Source: an uncultured Bacteroidales bacterium
Lineage (GTDB): Bacteria > Bacteroidota > Bacteroidia > Bacteroidales > UBA932
Reading direction: 5' to 3'
Length of the DNA: 53,154 nucleotides
Assembly (NCBI GenBank): GCA_944326315.1
Contig: CALVDP010000010.1
Span: 1-53,154 of the forward strand
Positions 10,494 through 46,859 of the stretch are shown here, piece by piece. The notes under the pieces are model-generated. The model was not told where the DNA came from and did no database searches. It worked only from the letters and a program-made list of their open reading frames with translations. The first letter of the stretch is position 1; each line of letters begins with the position of its first letter. Position numbers and translations under genes: made by a program.

Positions 10494-10572
10494 TAACGAT
10501 TTCTTCGAAATCTCTTTTCCTTTTTCGTGTCACCCTCTTAAATTCTCCCCTGCATATGGGAGAACTTACATC
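10494..10572 (-). repeat. Copy B of the dispersed element (partial, 79 bp)
   Basis: Contains the GATTTC-TTC-GAAATC palindrome, the CTTTTTCGTGTCACCCTCTTAAATT block and the CTCCCC..GGGAG hairpin, ending in GAGAACTTACATC like copy C. Both ends of the full element are absent. The palindrome side faces the MATE start codon seven bases away, the same orientation as all other copies. It fills the gap between the copper ATPase stop and the MATE gene. Confidence 0.85.
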
Positions 10573-15828: not shown

Positions 15829-15840
15829 TTCCTGTTTGTT

Positions 15841-16039
15841 AACGTCAGTTCGACGAATTATTATGTTCAGTATCAAAGATTCCGTCGAACTGACGTTACG
15901 ATTTCTTCGAAATCCATTTCCTTTTTCGTGTCACCCCTCTTAAATTCTCCCCTGCGTAGGGGAGAACTTACATCGGACTTCGTCCTCCATAGAGGTAATT
16001 CTATGAAATTCATTCCATTCATTTCATCGAATTCACGTT
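15841..16039 (-). repeat. Copy C of the dispersed element (complete, 199 bp)
   Basis: Plus strand opens with AACGTCAGTTCGAC, 29 bases, GTCGAACTGACGTT (a 14-bp inverted repeat), then GATTTCTTCGAAATC, the TTCTCCCCT-GCGT-AGGGGAGAA hairpin, GGACTTCGTCC, and ends CATCGAATTCACGTT. GTTTGTT stands directly on both sides (15834-15840 and 16040-16046), a 7-bp target duplication. The element separates the porin start from its promoter. Confidence 0.95.
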
Positions 16040-16054
16040 GTTTGTTATATACAT

Positions 16055-28500: not shown

Positions 28501-29619
28501 TTGAAAATAGCCATACTGTCCTGCTTCTATCCCTACAGGGGTGGGATTTCCCAGTTCAATGCCTGTCTGTATGAAGAACTGGGGAAGGAAAATGTCGTGA
28601 AAGCCTTCAATTTCAGCCGGCAATATCCCGAGTTCCTTTTCCCTGGCAAGACACAGTATGTCACAGACGATGACCAGGCCGCGAAGATCGACAGCGAAAG
28701 ACTGCTCGACACGGCCTGGCCTTTTTCGTATGCCTCCACACTGAAAAGGATCAGGGAATGGGGTCCCGACTTGCTTGTCGTCAGGTACTGGATGTCATGG
28801 TTCGCCCCTTCGCTCGGGTATGTGACCAGAGGAATGAAAGGCAGATGCAAAGTCATATCGATACTTGACAATGTCGTGCCTCACGAGCCGAGATTCTTCG
28901 ACAAACCATTCACAAAGTATTTCCTGAAAGGGAGCGACGGATATGTCACGTTGTGCGAAGCCGTGGCTGAAGACCTGCTCAGGCTGAAACCCGATGCCAG
29001 ATACAAGGTGCTTCCCCACCCTCTCTATTCACATTTCGGAGCCAGGAAGGACCGTCTGGAGGCAGAGAATGAACTCGGGCTTGAACACGGGAAGAAGAAC
29101 ATTCTTTTCTTCGGTCTGATACGGGAATACAAGGGGCTTGACATTCTGATAGACGCCTTCTCCGGACTTGATGACAGCTACAGGCTGATCATCGCAGGCG
29201 AACCGTACGGCCCGTTCGACCGGTATGAAGCCATGATAGAAAAGGCCGGCAGAGATCGGATACACACGTTCCTGCGCTACATCAAGGACTCAGACGTATC
29301 CGTGTTCTTCTCGGCGGCCGATGTATCCGTGCTTCCATACAGAAGCGCGACGCAAAGCGGCATCAGCTCCGTTTCGTACCATTTTGAGGTACCCATGATA
29401 GTGACATCGGTCGGAGGACTGAAGGAGACCATCGGGGACAGGGGGACAGGCATTGTCACCCCGGAAATATCGGCCGAAGCAATAAGAGATGCCATCACCA
29501 TGTATTTCGGCAATCCGGAAATACGTGAAAATTGTATAAACAATATCAGGAAGGTGAAAAAGGAGCTGTCCTGGGAAACTTTCTGCGCAGGACTGCTCGA
29601 TTTCTGCAAAACACTATAA
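28501..29619 (+). CDS. GT4-family glycosyltransferase
   Basis: A 372-residue GT-B enzyme. The frame opens with TTG at 28501, abutting the previous stop; KIAILSCFYPYRGGISQFN is the usual GT4 beginning so the start is secure despite the rare codon. The C-terminal donor domain shows ILFFGLIREYKGLDILIDAF and the SATQSGISSVSYHFEVPMI segment where EX7E-type enzymes carry the first Glu; here that position is not Glu in an obvious way, so activity needs care. Before the long element was inserted, its stop would have been only about ten bases from the LysM gene, giving a skp-GT-LysM operon. Confidence 0.8.
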   Translation: MKIAILSCFYPYRGGISQFNACLYEELGKENVVKAFNFSRQYPEFLFPGKTQYVTDDDQAAKIDSERLLDTAWPFSYASTLKRIREWGPDLLVVRYWMSWFAPSLGYVTRGMKGRCKVISILDNVVPHEPRFFDKPFTKYFLKGSDGYVTLCEAVAEDLLRLKPDARYKVLPHPLYSHFGARKDRLEAENELGLEHGKKNILFFGLIREYKGLDILIDAFSGLDDSYRLIIAGEPYGPFDRYEAMIEKAGRDRIHTFLRYIKDSDVSVFFSAADVSVLPYRSATQSGISSVSYHFEVPMIVTSVGGLKETIGDRGTGIVTPEISAEAIRDAITMYFGNPEIRENCINNIRKVKKELSWETFCAGLLDFCKTL

Positions 29620-29622
29620 AAT

Positions 29623-30093
29623 AACGTGAATTCGATGAAATGAATGGAATGAATTTAAGAGAATTACCTCTATAGCGGACGAAGTCCGGCGTAAGGACGG
29701 TGTGTCCTTAAAGGGGCTGGGTCAATTCGGGGGGCACCCCGAAGGGACCGCGACCGGAGGAAGCGAAACCGACGACAAACCGAATGGAATACCAAATTTA
29801 TTTGGATATTCCTGAGGTGCGAAGGAGGAAAACCTGTCAAGGTTAATCCCCAGGGTGCAGGGGGTTAGGATGAATTCAGGTTAAACTGAAGTTTTTCCAT
29901 ATCCTCACCTCGGCAATTTGTGCAGGCACAATTGCACTCTGTTCGTCAATGGTTTCGCTGAAAGACGTTCGGGGGTGACCAAAAGTCACTTTTGAGTCAC
30001 CCTCACGAAAAAGGAAAGGGATTTCGAAGAAATCGTAACGTCAGTTCGACGGAATCTCTGATAATGAACAGAATAATTCGTCGAACTGACGTT
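29623..30093 (+). repeat. Copy D of the dispersed element (long form, 471 bp)
   Basis: Begins AACGTGAATTCGATGAA and ends TTCGTCGAACTGACGTT like the 199-bp copies, with the same 14-bp inverted repeat at its gene-side end (30037-30093). The direct repeat AAAAT flanks it (29618-29622 and 30094-30098). Between GGCGTAAG and CACGAAAAAGG the short form's CTCCCC hairpin is replaced by a roughly 300-base structured module. The gene-side end is 12 bases before the LysM ATG. Confidence 0.93.
29692..30002 (+). ncRNA. Candidate structured RNA inside the long element
   Basis: Pairings found by eye: TAAGGAC 29692/GTCCTTA 29704; GGTC+TTCGGGG 29720-29732/CCCCGAA+GACC 29737-29749; AGCGAAACC 29762/GGTTTCGCT 29951 (9-bp long-range stem); GGAATA+CCAAA 29786-29796/TTTGG+TATTCC 29801-29812; GAGGTG 29814/CACCTC 29906; AACCT 29831/AGGTT 29840; AATCCCC 29845/GGGGGTT 29860; AGGAT 29867/ATCCT 29901 with TTCAG/CTGAA inside; GCAATT.GTG 29913-29922/CAC AATTGC 29927-29935; GGGTGAC+CAAAAG 29973-29985/CTTTTG+GTCACCC 29989-30002. 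The stems nest without conflict into a multibranch fold. No ORF spans it. It resembles no RNA family I can name with certainty. Confidence 0.7.
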
Positions 30094-30105
30094 AAAATAC
30101 AACTG

Positions 30106-31740
30106 ATGAAACATCTGTTTTATACTCTATTGATCGTAATTCTTGCATCAGGAGGTGCCACGGTGCTTCATGCACAGGAATACACCCCTGTACCGGTAGT
30201 CGTGTCCAAGGAAAAAGTCAGGGTGGACGGAAAACTCTACTATTCGCATATTGTCACAGAAAGACAGACCTTATATTCGATAAGCAAGGCCTACAATGTG
30301 CCGATCGGGGAGATTTACGAGGCCAATCCTTCCGTCAAGTCAGAAGGTCTGAAGAAAAACGCCATACTGCTCATCCCATGCAAAGGACAGCAACAACAGA
30401 AGAAGGCCGAGGTGAAGAAGAAGACCGTAGCGGAAGACGATGAATACGTCATCCATACGGTAAAATGGTATGAGGACCTGGACGCCATATCCGAGAAATA
30501 CGGTGTGCCTGTCAACGCCATAATGGATGCCAACGGGCTGACAGGACGCAAACTCACAAGACGGCAGAAACTGAAGATACCTCTCCGGGCTGCAGGTTCG
30601 GAGACCGGTACGGAGAACGTGGCGGAGACTGCAATGAATGCTGCGGACGTGCAGACAGATTCAATACCTGCGGCAATGCAGGGAAGGGATGAGAAAGACA
30701 AGATCAACGCCATCCTCCTGATGCCATTCAACACACACGGGGAGAAGCCGAGAAGCGGCAGCATAGACTTCTACTGCGGTGCACTGATGGCAGTGAAGCA
30801 GGCCGGAGACAAAGGCATGAACATCGACCTGAGCGTATATGACGTGGAAGGTGACGTGATACCTGTCACGAAAGACAAATTCGGCGATACCGACCTCGTG
30901 ATAGGCCCTGTCTCACCGGCCGCACTTGCGGAGGTCCTTGCAAGATGCCCGGAAGGCACAGACGTGATATCCCCGCTTGACCACAAGGCCGAATACCTTG
31001 CGGCAGGACACACGAACTTCATCCAGGCGCCGACATCATCCATGGTACTCTACAGCGACCTGGCCGAATGGATCAGGACAGAAAAACGCGACAGCGAGGA
31101 AAAGGTGATAGTGATATATGAGAAAGGGTCGCGGGACATACAGGAACTGGCGGCCATGAACACCATCCTGCAGAAAGACGGCATCAAGTTCAGCTCGTTC
31201 TCGTACAGCATCCTCGAAGGGAGGGACATACAGGGTCCGCTGACTGCCATGATGTCCAAAGACGCGGCCAACCGTGTCCTTGTGATGTCGGAAAGCGAGG
31301 CCTTCGTGAATGATGTTGTAAGGAACCTGAACCTCATAATACACTCGGAGTATGAAGTCATACTGTACGGCCCATCCAAGATACGGAGTTTCGACACGAT
31401 TGAAGTGGACAACCTCCACAATGCCAGACTGCATACGTCCCTGGCGTATTACGTCGATTATGAAGACGAGACCGTCAAGGATTTCGTAAGGAAATACAGG
31501 GCGCTCTACAATACCGAGCCTACCCCGTATGCATTCCAGGGATACGACATAGCCGCATATTTCCTCAGCCTGTACGCCGGACACGGCAGTTCATGGAAAG
31601 AGTACCTCGGTTCGGAAGGACGGGACATGCTCCAGGCTGACTTTGATTTCAGGCAGGAAGATGATGGCGGATATGTGAACTATGGTGTAAGACGTATAGT
31701 ATATGGACCGGACTATTCCATAACACTGGTCCAGGAATGA
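30106..31740 (+). CDS. LysM-domain lipoprotein-like protein with periplasmic binding fold
   Basis: A 544-residue secreted protein. Signal peptide (TLLIVILASGGATVLHAQ), first LysM about residues 40-90 (HIVTERQTLYSISKAYNVPIGEIYEANP), a second about 105-155 (HTVKWYEDLDAISEKYGVP), and a C-terminal half resembling periplasmic binding protein/LpoA-type receptors (INAILLMPFN, DLVIGPVSPAAL, GYDIAAYFLSLY). It probably binds peptidoglycan and regulates or supports cell-wall synthesis. ATG 30106 is chosen; an in-frame start at 29992 lies within the element and would prefix an unrelated translated hairpin. The LysM gene now depends on transcription through the 471-bp element. It ends three bases from recN, which converges. 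Confidence 0.85.
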   Translation: MKHLFYTLLIVILASGGATVLHAQEYTPVPVVVSKEKVRVDGKLYYSHIVTERQTLYSISKAYNVPIGEIYEANPSVKSEGLKKNAILLIPCKGQQQQKKAEVKKKTVAEDDEYVIHTVKWYEDLDAISEKYGVPVNAIMDANGLTGRKLTRRQKLKIPLRAAGSETGTENVAETAMNAADVQTDSIPAAMQGRDEKDKINAILLMPFNTHGEKPRSGSIDFYCGALMAVKQAGDKGMNIDLSVYDVEGDVIPVTKDKFGDTDLVIGPVSPAALAEVLARCPEGTDVISPLDHKAEYLAAGHTNFIQAPTSSMVLYSDLAEWIRTEKRDSEEKVIVIYEKGSRDIQELAAMNTILQKDGIKFSSFSYSILEGRDIQGPLTAMMSKDAANRVLVMSESEAFVNDVVRNLNLIIHSEYEVILYGPSKIRSFDTIEVDNLHNARLHTSLAYYVDYEDETVKDFVRKYRALYNTEPTPYAFQGYDIAAYFLSLYAGHGSSWKEYLGSEGRDMLQADFDFRQEDDGGYVNYGVRRIVYGPDYSITLVQE

Positions 31741-38700: not shown

Positions 38701-38723
38701 TGTTCCATTGAATTATTGTAGTT

Positions 38724-38922
38724 AACGTCAGTTCGACGAATTATTCTGTTCAATATCAGAGATTCCGTCGAACTGACGTTACGATTTCTTCGAAATCCCT
38801 TTCCTTTTTCGTGTCACCCCTCTTAAATTCTCCCCTGCGTAGGGGAGAACTTACGCCGGACTTCGTCCTCTATAGAGGTAATTCTATGAAATTCATTCCA
38901 TTCATTTCATCGAATTCACGTT
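38724..38922 (-). repeat. Copy E of the dispersed element (complete, 199 bp)
   Basis: Same order as copy C with few base changes. AGTT stands on both sides (38720-38723 and 38923-38926). The inverted-repeat end faces cstA. Confidence 0.95.
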
Positions 38923-38939
38923 AGTTATCAGTCTTAATG

Positions 38940-39517: not shown

Positions 39518-39556
39518 GGGGCTGCATCAAAACACTTATTTTGATGCAGCCCCTTT
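39518..39556 (+). terminator. Terminator of tRNA-Val
   Basis: GGGGCTGCATCAAAA/TTTTGATGCAGCCCC, a perfect 15-bp stem with a six-base loop, followed by TTT. It lies 28 bases from the end of the converging alpha-2-macroglobulin gene and may serve both. Confidence 0.9.
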
Positions 39557-39583
39557 AAGATTACATCGAATCCACGTTAATTG

Positions 39584-46505: not shown

Positions 46506-46564
46506 GCAATTTATTGCAACATTTTTCCGGCATCGTTCATCTTCTCAGAGGACAATAATTATTT

Positions 46565-46763
46565 AACGTGAATTCGATGAAATGAATGGAATGAATTTCA
46601 TAGAATTACCTCTATAGAGGACGAAGTCCGGCGTAAGTTCTCCCCTACGCAGGGGAGAATTTAAGAGGGGTGACACGAAAAAGGAAAGGGATTTCGAAGA
46701 AATCGTAACGTCAGTTCGACGGAATCTCTGATATTGAACAGAATAATTCGTCGAACTGACGTT
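46565..46763 (+). repeat. Copy F of the dispersed element (complete, 199 bp)
   Basis: Reads AACGTGAATTCGATGAA to TTCGTCGAACTGACGTT on the plus strand. ATTT flanks it (46561-46564 and 46764-46767). It is followed immediately by the partial copy G. Confidence 0.95.
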
Positions 46764-46767
46764 ATTT

Positions 46768-46859
46768 AACGTGAATTCGTTGAAATGAATGAAATGAATG
46801 GAATGAATTTAAGAGGGGGTGACACGAAAAAGAAATGGGATTTCGAAGAAATCGTAACG
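46768..46859 (+). repeat. Copy G of the dispersed element (partial, 92 bp)
   Basis: Begins AACGTGAATTCGTTGAA, then jumps from the ATGGAATGAATTTAAGAGG block to GTGACACGAAAAAG and the GATTTCGAAGAAATC palindrome. It lacks the CTCCCC hairpin, the CCTCTATAGAGG palindrome and the gene-side inverted repeat. It runs into the lipoprotein gene three to eighteen bases before its start. Confidence 0.9.

Follow-up and report, generated by a model that had tools for sequence, protein, structure and literature searches.

The window, by which we mean the whole stretch of 53,154 nucleotides analyzed here, carries a small transposon (copy D) between a glycosyltransferase open reading frame (ORF) and a gene for a LysM protein. 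The features of the locus are listed below.

28501-29619: glycosyltransferase ORF (Pfam Glycos_transf_1)
29617..29623, + strand: left target-site duplication TAAAATA, the first three bases of which are the glycosyltransferase stop codon
29624..30092, + strand: copy D, a MITE of 469 bp with the ends ACGTGAATTCGATGAA and TTCGTCGAACTGACGT, which were compared with those of ISPg3, MITE239 and MITE700
29624..29695, + strand: MITE left end, common to the short forms
29692..29743, + strand: 5' part of the module, with the hairpin TAAGGACGGTGTGTCCTTA (29692-29710), the GGGGCTGGGTCAA segment and the hairpin TTCGGGG..CCCCGAA (29726-29743)
29744..29765, + strand: core, comprising a remnant of hairpin 1 and hairpin 2 (GGGACCGCGACCGGAGGAAGCG)
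29766..29846, + strand: inserted module M1, with its own hairpin at 29786-29812
29847..29879, + strand: core, comprising a remnant of hairpin 3 and the end segment GGGGGTTAGGATG
29880..29957, - strand: inserted module M4, homologous to M1 and in the opposite orientation
29973..30002, no strand assigned: closing hairpin GGGTGACCAAAAGTCACTTTTGAGTCACCC
30004..30092, + strand: MITE right end, with the hairpin GATTTCGAAGAAATC and the terminal palindrome AACGTCAGTTCGACG..CGTCGAACTGACGTT
30093..30099, + strand: right target-site duplication TAAAATA

The gap between the right duplication and the ATG of the LysM gene (30106; LysM by Pfam) is six bases. Copy D was therefore inserted between two closely spaced genes. 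Direct repeats of 6-9 bp, mostly of the form TA-N2..5-TA, were present outside the ends of 27 of the 29 distinct full copies of the MITE (53 rows in the copy table, in which most copies are listed on both strands). The 18-base left end was found at 87 places among the matches listed at one mismatch or fewer, 64 of them exact, in the 2.42-Mb genome; at up to three mismatches it was found at 190 places, right ends included, and a reversed-pattern control gave 0. No ORF of at least 60 aa lies inside copy D, except for an overlap with the LysM frame, and the element is thus without a transposase of its own. Its terminal inverted repeats match those of ISPg3 (by eye, against a printed table), and the target-site duplication is present. 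As judged from the sequence, copy D would therefore be classed as an ISPg3-type MITE (IS5 family) that is non-autonomous and has, in place of its central hairpin, a member of a second repeat family. The MITE as a whole was likely transposed by an IS5-type transposase acting in trans, and the module in it was probably moved along as a passenger.

Where copy D has the module, the short forms of the element, such as that at 46564-46764, have a small hairpin in the centre, as had been described in the original prediction, which regarded 29692-30002 as a structured RNA unit carried by a long form. A structured unit does lie on a mobile element; the module is not unique to copy D, as it has relatives elsewhere in the genome, and the true ends of the unit are the transposon ends, 29624 and 30092. 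Further full, partial or degenerate MITE copies are present in the window at 1-82, 10496-10572, 15838-16040, 38722-38923, 39541-39582, 46564-46764 and 46767-46859, those at 46564 and 46767 being arranged head to tail. Five contigs of genome G000 (C9, C49, C53, C65 and C87) start about 60-77 bases from the MITE left end; therefore, the repeat probably breaks the assembly.

The insert is an independent second repeat family of palindromic nature, composed of a three-hairpin core, optional nested palindromic modules at fixed positions and a strong closing hairpin. The minimal core (loci L016 and L021) consists of hairpin 1 (GTCCCGAAGGGAC), hairpin 2, hairpin 3 (CCCCCTAATAGGGGG), the GGGGGTTAGGATG segment, hairpin 5 (GTCTTTCGAAGAAAGAC) and the closing hairpin. 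In the 23 regions compared (copy D and 22 loci), hairpin 3 could have M2 in its loop and M3 following it, M1 separated it from hairpin 2, and M4 sat within hairpin 5. Each module was present independently, and the order M1-M2-M3-core end-M4-hairpin 5-closing hairpin was kept except in L010 and L013, which hold copies in tandem, and in L018, a MITE copy in which M4 is reversed. Copy D contains M1 and M4, and the core model R1 matches it at 29732-29873 with 29.1 bits; its hairpin TTCGGGG..CCCCGAA resembles the junctions of tandem copies in L010, L013 and L049. Alignment of M1 with the reverse complement of M4 gave a local score of 40, reached in 0 of 2000 shuffles that preserve base composition only, and both modules match repeats in L032 (a genome of another family) and L033 (another genome of the same genus). 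The 9-bp stem joining bases 190 apart, to which the original prediction had drawn attention (AGCGAAACC, 29762-29770, with GGTTTCGCT, 29951-29959), is indeed present in the sequence, and it owes its existence to the homology of M1 and M4, which lie in opposite orientations. The hairpins noted at 29786-29812 (in M1) and 29973-30002 are present as well. Many partial relatives of the modules occur in the same genome, within and outside MITE ends, where a search with the D element, in which 40 of 185 initial candidates were scored, yielded at least 108 matching pieces.

An exact core pattern was found in seven stretches of five named Bacteroidales MAGs, one of which is called Candidatus Cryptobacteroides, and we infer that this is the genus of the window genome. 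Within the genus, the core was detected by blastn in 25 of 250 genomes and by the covariance model R1, under strict filters and with up to 20 candidates scored per genome, in 73 of 250. In an order-wide sample, 4 of 393 genomes matched the core model, three of them from the same genus (the window genome included) and one marginal. As a whole, the palindromic element is confined almost wholly to one Bacteroidales genus in the genomes searched. Viral contigs gave no match to the exact core pattern. Carriage by phages or plasmids was rejected as an explanation, since blastn of window positions 29640-30100 against phage and plasmid records gave no match. No description of the core repeat family was found in searches of the open-licence literature of PubMed Central.

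The insertion sites of the core were compared in 116 of 155 nhmmer hits, those dropped having short flanks or being duplicates, and 57 of 64 rows were kept in alignment A2. A strong hairpin was present within 110 nt downstream of the core in 77 of the 116 distinct copies, against 2 of 348 shuffles preserving base composition only, and upstream of the core in 13; 39 copies had no closing hairpin at the threshold. The distance from the core end to the closing hairpin was 6 nt or less in 28 copies, 7-30 nt in 42 and above 30 nt in 7. In 46 of the 77, the closing hairpin was formed by a recurrent sequence, GGGTGACC/GGGATGAAC-like, and these hairpins, being of one type, are not site-specific; the other 31 differed. 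The 3' end of the core is nearly fixed and its 5' linker variable. A copy of the 5' arm of the closing hairpin was also found upstream of the core (score of at least 12) in 15 of the 77, compared with 1.4% of swapped pairs, and a copy of the 3' arm in 0 of 77; 62 were without a clear upstream arm copy. Ten of these 15 belong to the 31 differing hairpins (L230, L232, L222, L217, L234, L062, L244, L135, L144 and L207), and the remaining five form one near-identical group in genome G065 (L056, L119, L188, L189 and L190). Plain direct repeats (score of at least 20) flanked 19 of the 116 copies and 1.3% of swapped pairs; 8 of the 19 lie in arrays of another tandem repeat, and one is due to the hairpin-5 sequence.

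At L217 the closing hairpin extends into a tRNA-Gln gene. This locus (genome G134) has two tandem cores that are set apart by copies of a sequence matching a tRNA-Gln 3' end and trailer, in the layout arm-core-arm-core-arm-loop-arm. Gene strands were counted in 81 of 106 copies, with genes called by ORF heuristics. By these calls in copies that are not independent, the ORF downstream of the core ran opposite to it in 59 of 81 (p 5e-5), and that upstream, with the same heuristic calls and related copies, was unbiased (44 of 81); among the 45 copies with a same-strand upstream ORF, the stop codon of that ORF was within 60 nt of the core in 22. Heuristic ORFs enclosed 22 of the 106 copies, among which only the lpxB cases described below are trusted. 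An ffh query for an empty version of the L062 site matched relatives, and none of the five places read was a close empty copy; after the gene, these had hairpins of their own or other sequence. True empty sites for the core were recovered nowhere outside lpxB. A second repeat family beside the core (units like GGATATGTGGCGAAGCCAAATATCGCAGAAGCCGAGAGC..) flanks it at L008, L009, L020, L061, L123, L215, L218 and L219, and at L061 the core sits within copies of that family. At L053 the core breaks a reading frame resembling, as read by eye, a low-molecular-weight phosphatase; this frame has in-frame stops and was seemingly incomplete before.

In three genes, the core is located in frame within lpxB (Pfam LpxB) and the frame remains open: in genome G127 (L232), in a contig of a named MAG (L045) and in genome G201 (L231). 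Each of these genes carries, beside the core, an inverted copy of its HYKDG/HYKEG codons. Among 30 lpxB loci (the best 30 of 72 genomes matched), the core and the inverted copy were found in one, that of G127, and the inverted codon copy was found in 0 of 28 core-less orthologues, L296 being left out of the comparison. The arms of G127 and L045 differ at two sites, and they do so in all three arm copies, with changes of residue in the two inverted copies and silent changes in the native codons, a pattern that arm homogenisation by template switching would give. The simplest reading of lpxB is that the core was inserted with creation of the arm, the rival reading being hairpin-targeted insertion followed by loss. 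In L280 (genome G026) and L281, the variable stretch of lpxB contains other insertions and no core at the site, that of L280 having a 21-bp inverted repeat; this stretch seems to be tolerant of palindromic inserts.

We infer that spread and growth of the core take place at the tips of hairpins, by either template switching or hairpin-tip insertion. Template switching during replication, at hairpins in single-stranded DNA, is the more likely of the two; such a switch would write an inverted copy of the neighbouring sequence and homogenise the arms. Alternatively, an enzyme might cut the hairpin in a staggered way, so that the 5' arm and the loop would be duplicated. Put as a full account, a hairpin-recognising nuclease or integrase would cut an existing hairpin at the tip on one strand and at the base on the other, with duplication of about 20-35 bp of arm and loop. 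The layout [arm+loop][linker][core][arm+loop][3' arm], observed in L230, L232, L222, L062, L244, L135 and others, is what this account would produce, and the account also suits the relatives in which an ffh-like gene is followed by terminator-like hairpins of its own. However, the arms in lpxB and at L217 are inverted copies of native coding or tRNA sequence, which are unlikely to have been hairpins beforehand, no such enzyme was found, and the duplication is missing from most copies, so that we regard the nuclease or integrase as possible but rather unlikely.

The original prediction rested on the folding of the stretch 29692-30002, which it held to be far beyond that of the surrounding DNA, and this was borne out. 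The z-scores for folding were -6.3 (+ strand) and -7.7 (- strand), and in the comparison with 60 random pieces of 311 bases each from the + strand of the window the module scored -6.9 and -7.7, beyond all of the pieces (mean, -0.5; sd, 1.2; minimum, -4.3). The two strands fold alike. That no ORF covers the module also holds for 29692-29990, over which none of the listed ORFs of at least 60 aa extends; the ORF starting with TTG at 29992 is that of LysM, whose ATG is at 30106. The only Rfam match at the gathering score in the whole window was a tRNA outside the element. At E values up to 10, five matches were obtained in the element, all of them far under the family cut-offs, in agreement with the view that the module is assignable to no known family.

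Covariation had been named as a check of the RNA prediction, and the stems pass it in alignments of 15 and of 53 sequences. With 15 sequences, cells changed on both sides numbered 16, a value that none of 500 shuffles reached (4.9 in the shuffles), and neither the pairs with a double change (5 versus 3.3; 60 of 500 shuffles) nor the pair types (11 versus 9.3; 107 of 500 shuffles) were clearly above the shuffles. In the larger alignment, made of the 53 distinct sequences among 64 model matches and fitted to the model, the number of cells changed on both sides was 79, whereas the shuffles gave 23.6 (sd, 3.5) and none of 500 came as high; pairs with a double change numbered 10, compared with 6.4 (1 of 500), and controls with a slid structure gave at most 10 such cells. 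Unpaired cells amounted to 89 of 793 in this alignment, and one-sided changes totalled 7. Such covariation is also compatible with selection on RNA.

As regards a structured RNA family, covariation of the stems was thus found, and a G-U frequency at the level of tRNAs was not. G-U pairs made up 7 of 704 paired cells (1.0%) in the core stems versus 54 of 656 (8.2%) in 30 tRNAs from the loci and the window (Fisher p 2e-11), a control that is not blind because its stems were taken as drawn by ARAGORN and are all paired. The loop of hairpin 5 was C(GNA)G in all 52 copies matching the stem pattern, with exceptions outside this set in L070 (TCC) and L020 (AAA); in hairpin 1, C(GNA)G was found in 21 of the 43 distinct sequences with the stem. 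Elsewhere in the window, 0 of 16 triloop hairpins had C(GNA)G. In part of PMC4686876, GNA and GNNA loops are described as giving very stable DNA mini-hairpins. The loop type, the scarcity of G-U pairs, the equal folding of the strands and the in-frame copies in lpxB all favour hairpins at the DNA level, and we take it as likely that the hairpins form, or are copied, as DNA, their arms possibly being copied from a template. The reading that we prefer for the structured stretch is that of DNA hairpin repeats, one nested inside another on a small transposon, and not that of a new RNA.

On the same grounds, the new RNA class entertained in the original prediction is disfavoured, as are RNA readings of the module in general. 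A regulatory leader of the LysM gene can be dismissed as an ancestral feature, because copy D is an insertion with target duplication. More developed is the idea of a mobile class of structured non-coding RNA (SINE-like, or as a 3'-end RNA motif) with its stems under RNA selection. The strong covariation speaks for it, as do the near-fixed 3' end with a variable 5' linker, which would be expected from target-primed reverse transcription, and the many copies near the 3' ends of genes; but the near absence of G-U pairs, the like folding of both strands, the unbiased strand of the upstream gene and the lack of an Rfam match in the element all argue against it. A reverse transcriptase domain (RVT_1) was detected in only 6 of 20 strong carriers and, in the searches made, neither in the window genome nor in G065 and G162 (97% and 99% complete), and spread driven by reverse transcriptase is accordingly unlikely. 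We consider a mobile RNA class improbable.

The repeats are small and palindromic, and 181 of 250 genomes of the genus have the Y1 tyrosine transposase domain (Y1_Tnp), two features that would suit REP/BIME-like sequences moved by RAYT. The domain was found in 54 of 73 carriers defined by R1 and in 127 of 177 other genomes, which is no difference, and in 7 of 25 carriers defined by blastn and 174 of 225 others; the outcome changes with the definition of a carrier, and no association in either direction is firm. Such movement is unsupported and very unlikely, because no Y1_Tnp was detected in the window genome and the Y1 loci lack the core hairpins, six module and core signatures having given only 4 weak 15-base matches in 10 Y1 loci. 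No enzyme could be assigned to the core from the Y1_Tnp and RVT_1 searches. The mobile-element setting, the size and the nested stems would suit a HEARO or omega-RNA belonging to a system of the IscB/TnpB type, as they would a retron or a derivative of a group II intron. These readings can be given almost no credence, as Rfam had no such match, whether in the whole window at the gathering score or in the element with E values as high as 10, and the window genome gave no RVT_1 match. The guide-system RNA or ribozyme originally suggested is not supported.

Taken together, copy D is probably an ISPg3-type MITE that captured a genus-restricted, nested palindromic DNA repeat, the hairpins of which would act as DNA and which would spread via events at their tips. 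The carrier is a further member of the known MITEs, and the insert is a variant of known palindromic repeats; the site signature at a minority of copies could be a new mode of spread. A bolder proposal, which we put forward only tentatively and with considerable doubt, is that the core represents a novel kind of mobile DNA hairpin, one that has neither terminal inverted repeats nor its own transposase or reverse transcriptase. It would spread by the joining of its nearly fixed 3' end to a snap-back (inverted) copy of the target, so that [arm][linker][core][arm][loop][native arm] results, and it would grow by the nesting of hairpins in hairpins. If the site signature is correctly read, bacterial genomes could gain palindromic repeats through back-copying of the target, with no dedicated transposase and even inside lpxB, a gene of lipid A synthesis, and this would offer a testable route for the origin and nesting of REP- and RPE-like palindromes. 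Covariation alone is no proof of RNA, because template-driven copying of arms could give compensatory changes without G-U intermediates; before a new RNA class is declared, it is therefore useful to check the loop type and how often G-U pairs occur.

A table of PMC4596501 gives the ends of ISPg3, MITE239 and MITE700 from Porphyromonas gingivalis, and those of copy D match them: the right end, TCGAACTGACGT, is identical to that of ISPg3 (IS5 family), and the left end, ACGTGAATTCGA, agrees at 10 of 12 positions with ISPg3 and at 11 of 12 with MITE239. Unlike these elements, copy D belongs to another genus, its family has duplications of mostly TA-N2..5-TA, and it carries a modular palindromic insert. 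BrickBuilt of P. gingivalis, as presented in part of the same paper (PMC4596501), is likewise a Bacteroidales MITE with a variable internal repeat block, but this block is a 23-nt tandem minisatellite instead of nested hairpins, and the ends are different. Rickettsia palindromic elements (RPE) are characterized in a portion of PMC2229807 as palindromes of about 105-146 bp situated in frame in genes for conserved proteins; the core is similarly in frame in a conserved gene (lpxB), a likeness that concerns its position, and differs from RPE in its modular nesting, closing hairpin and arm copies. Template-switch mutations at quasipalindromes homogenise arms and produce inverted copies, according to excerpts of PMC8604942 and PMC7202029, whereas the case of the core would couple a template switch to the insertion of a dispersed repeat. 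The palindromes of REP/BIME with RAYT are present in many copies, as is the core, which is larger and modular and has no RAYT in its own genome and no repeat-flanked RAYT among the 10 loci. BOX elements of pneumococcus are modular repeats with variable middle parts, and in this they resemble the core.
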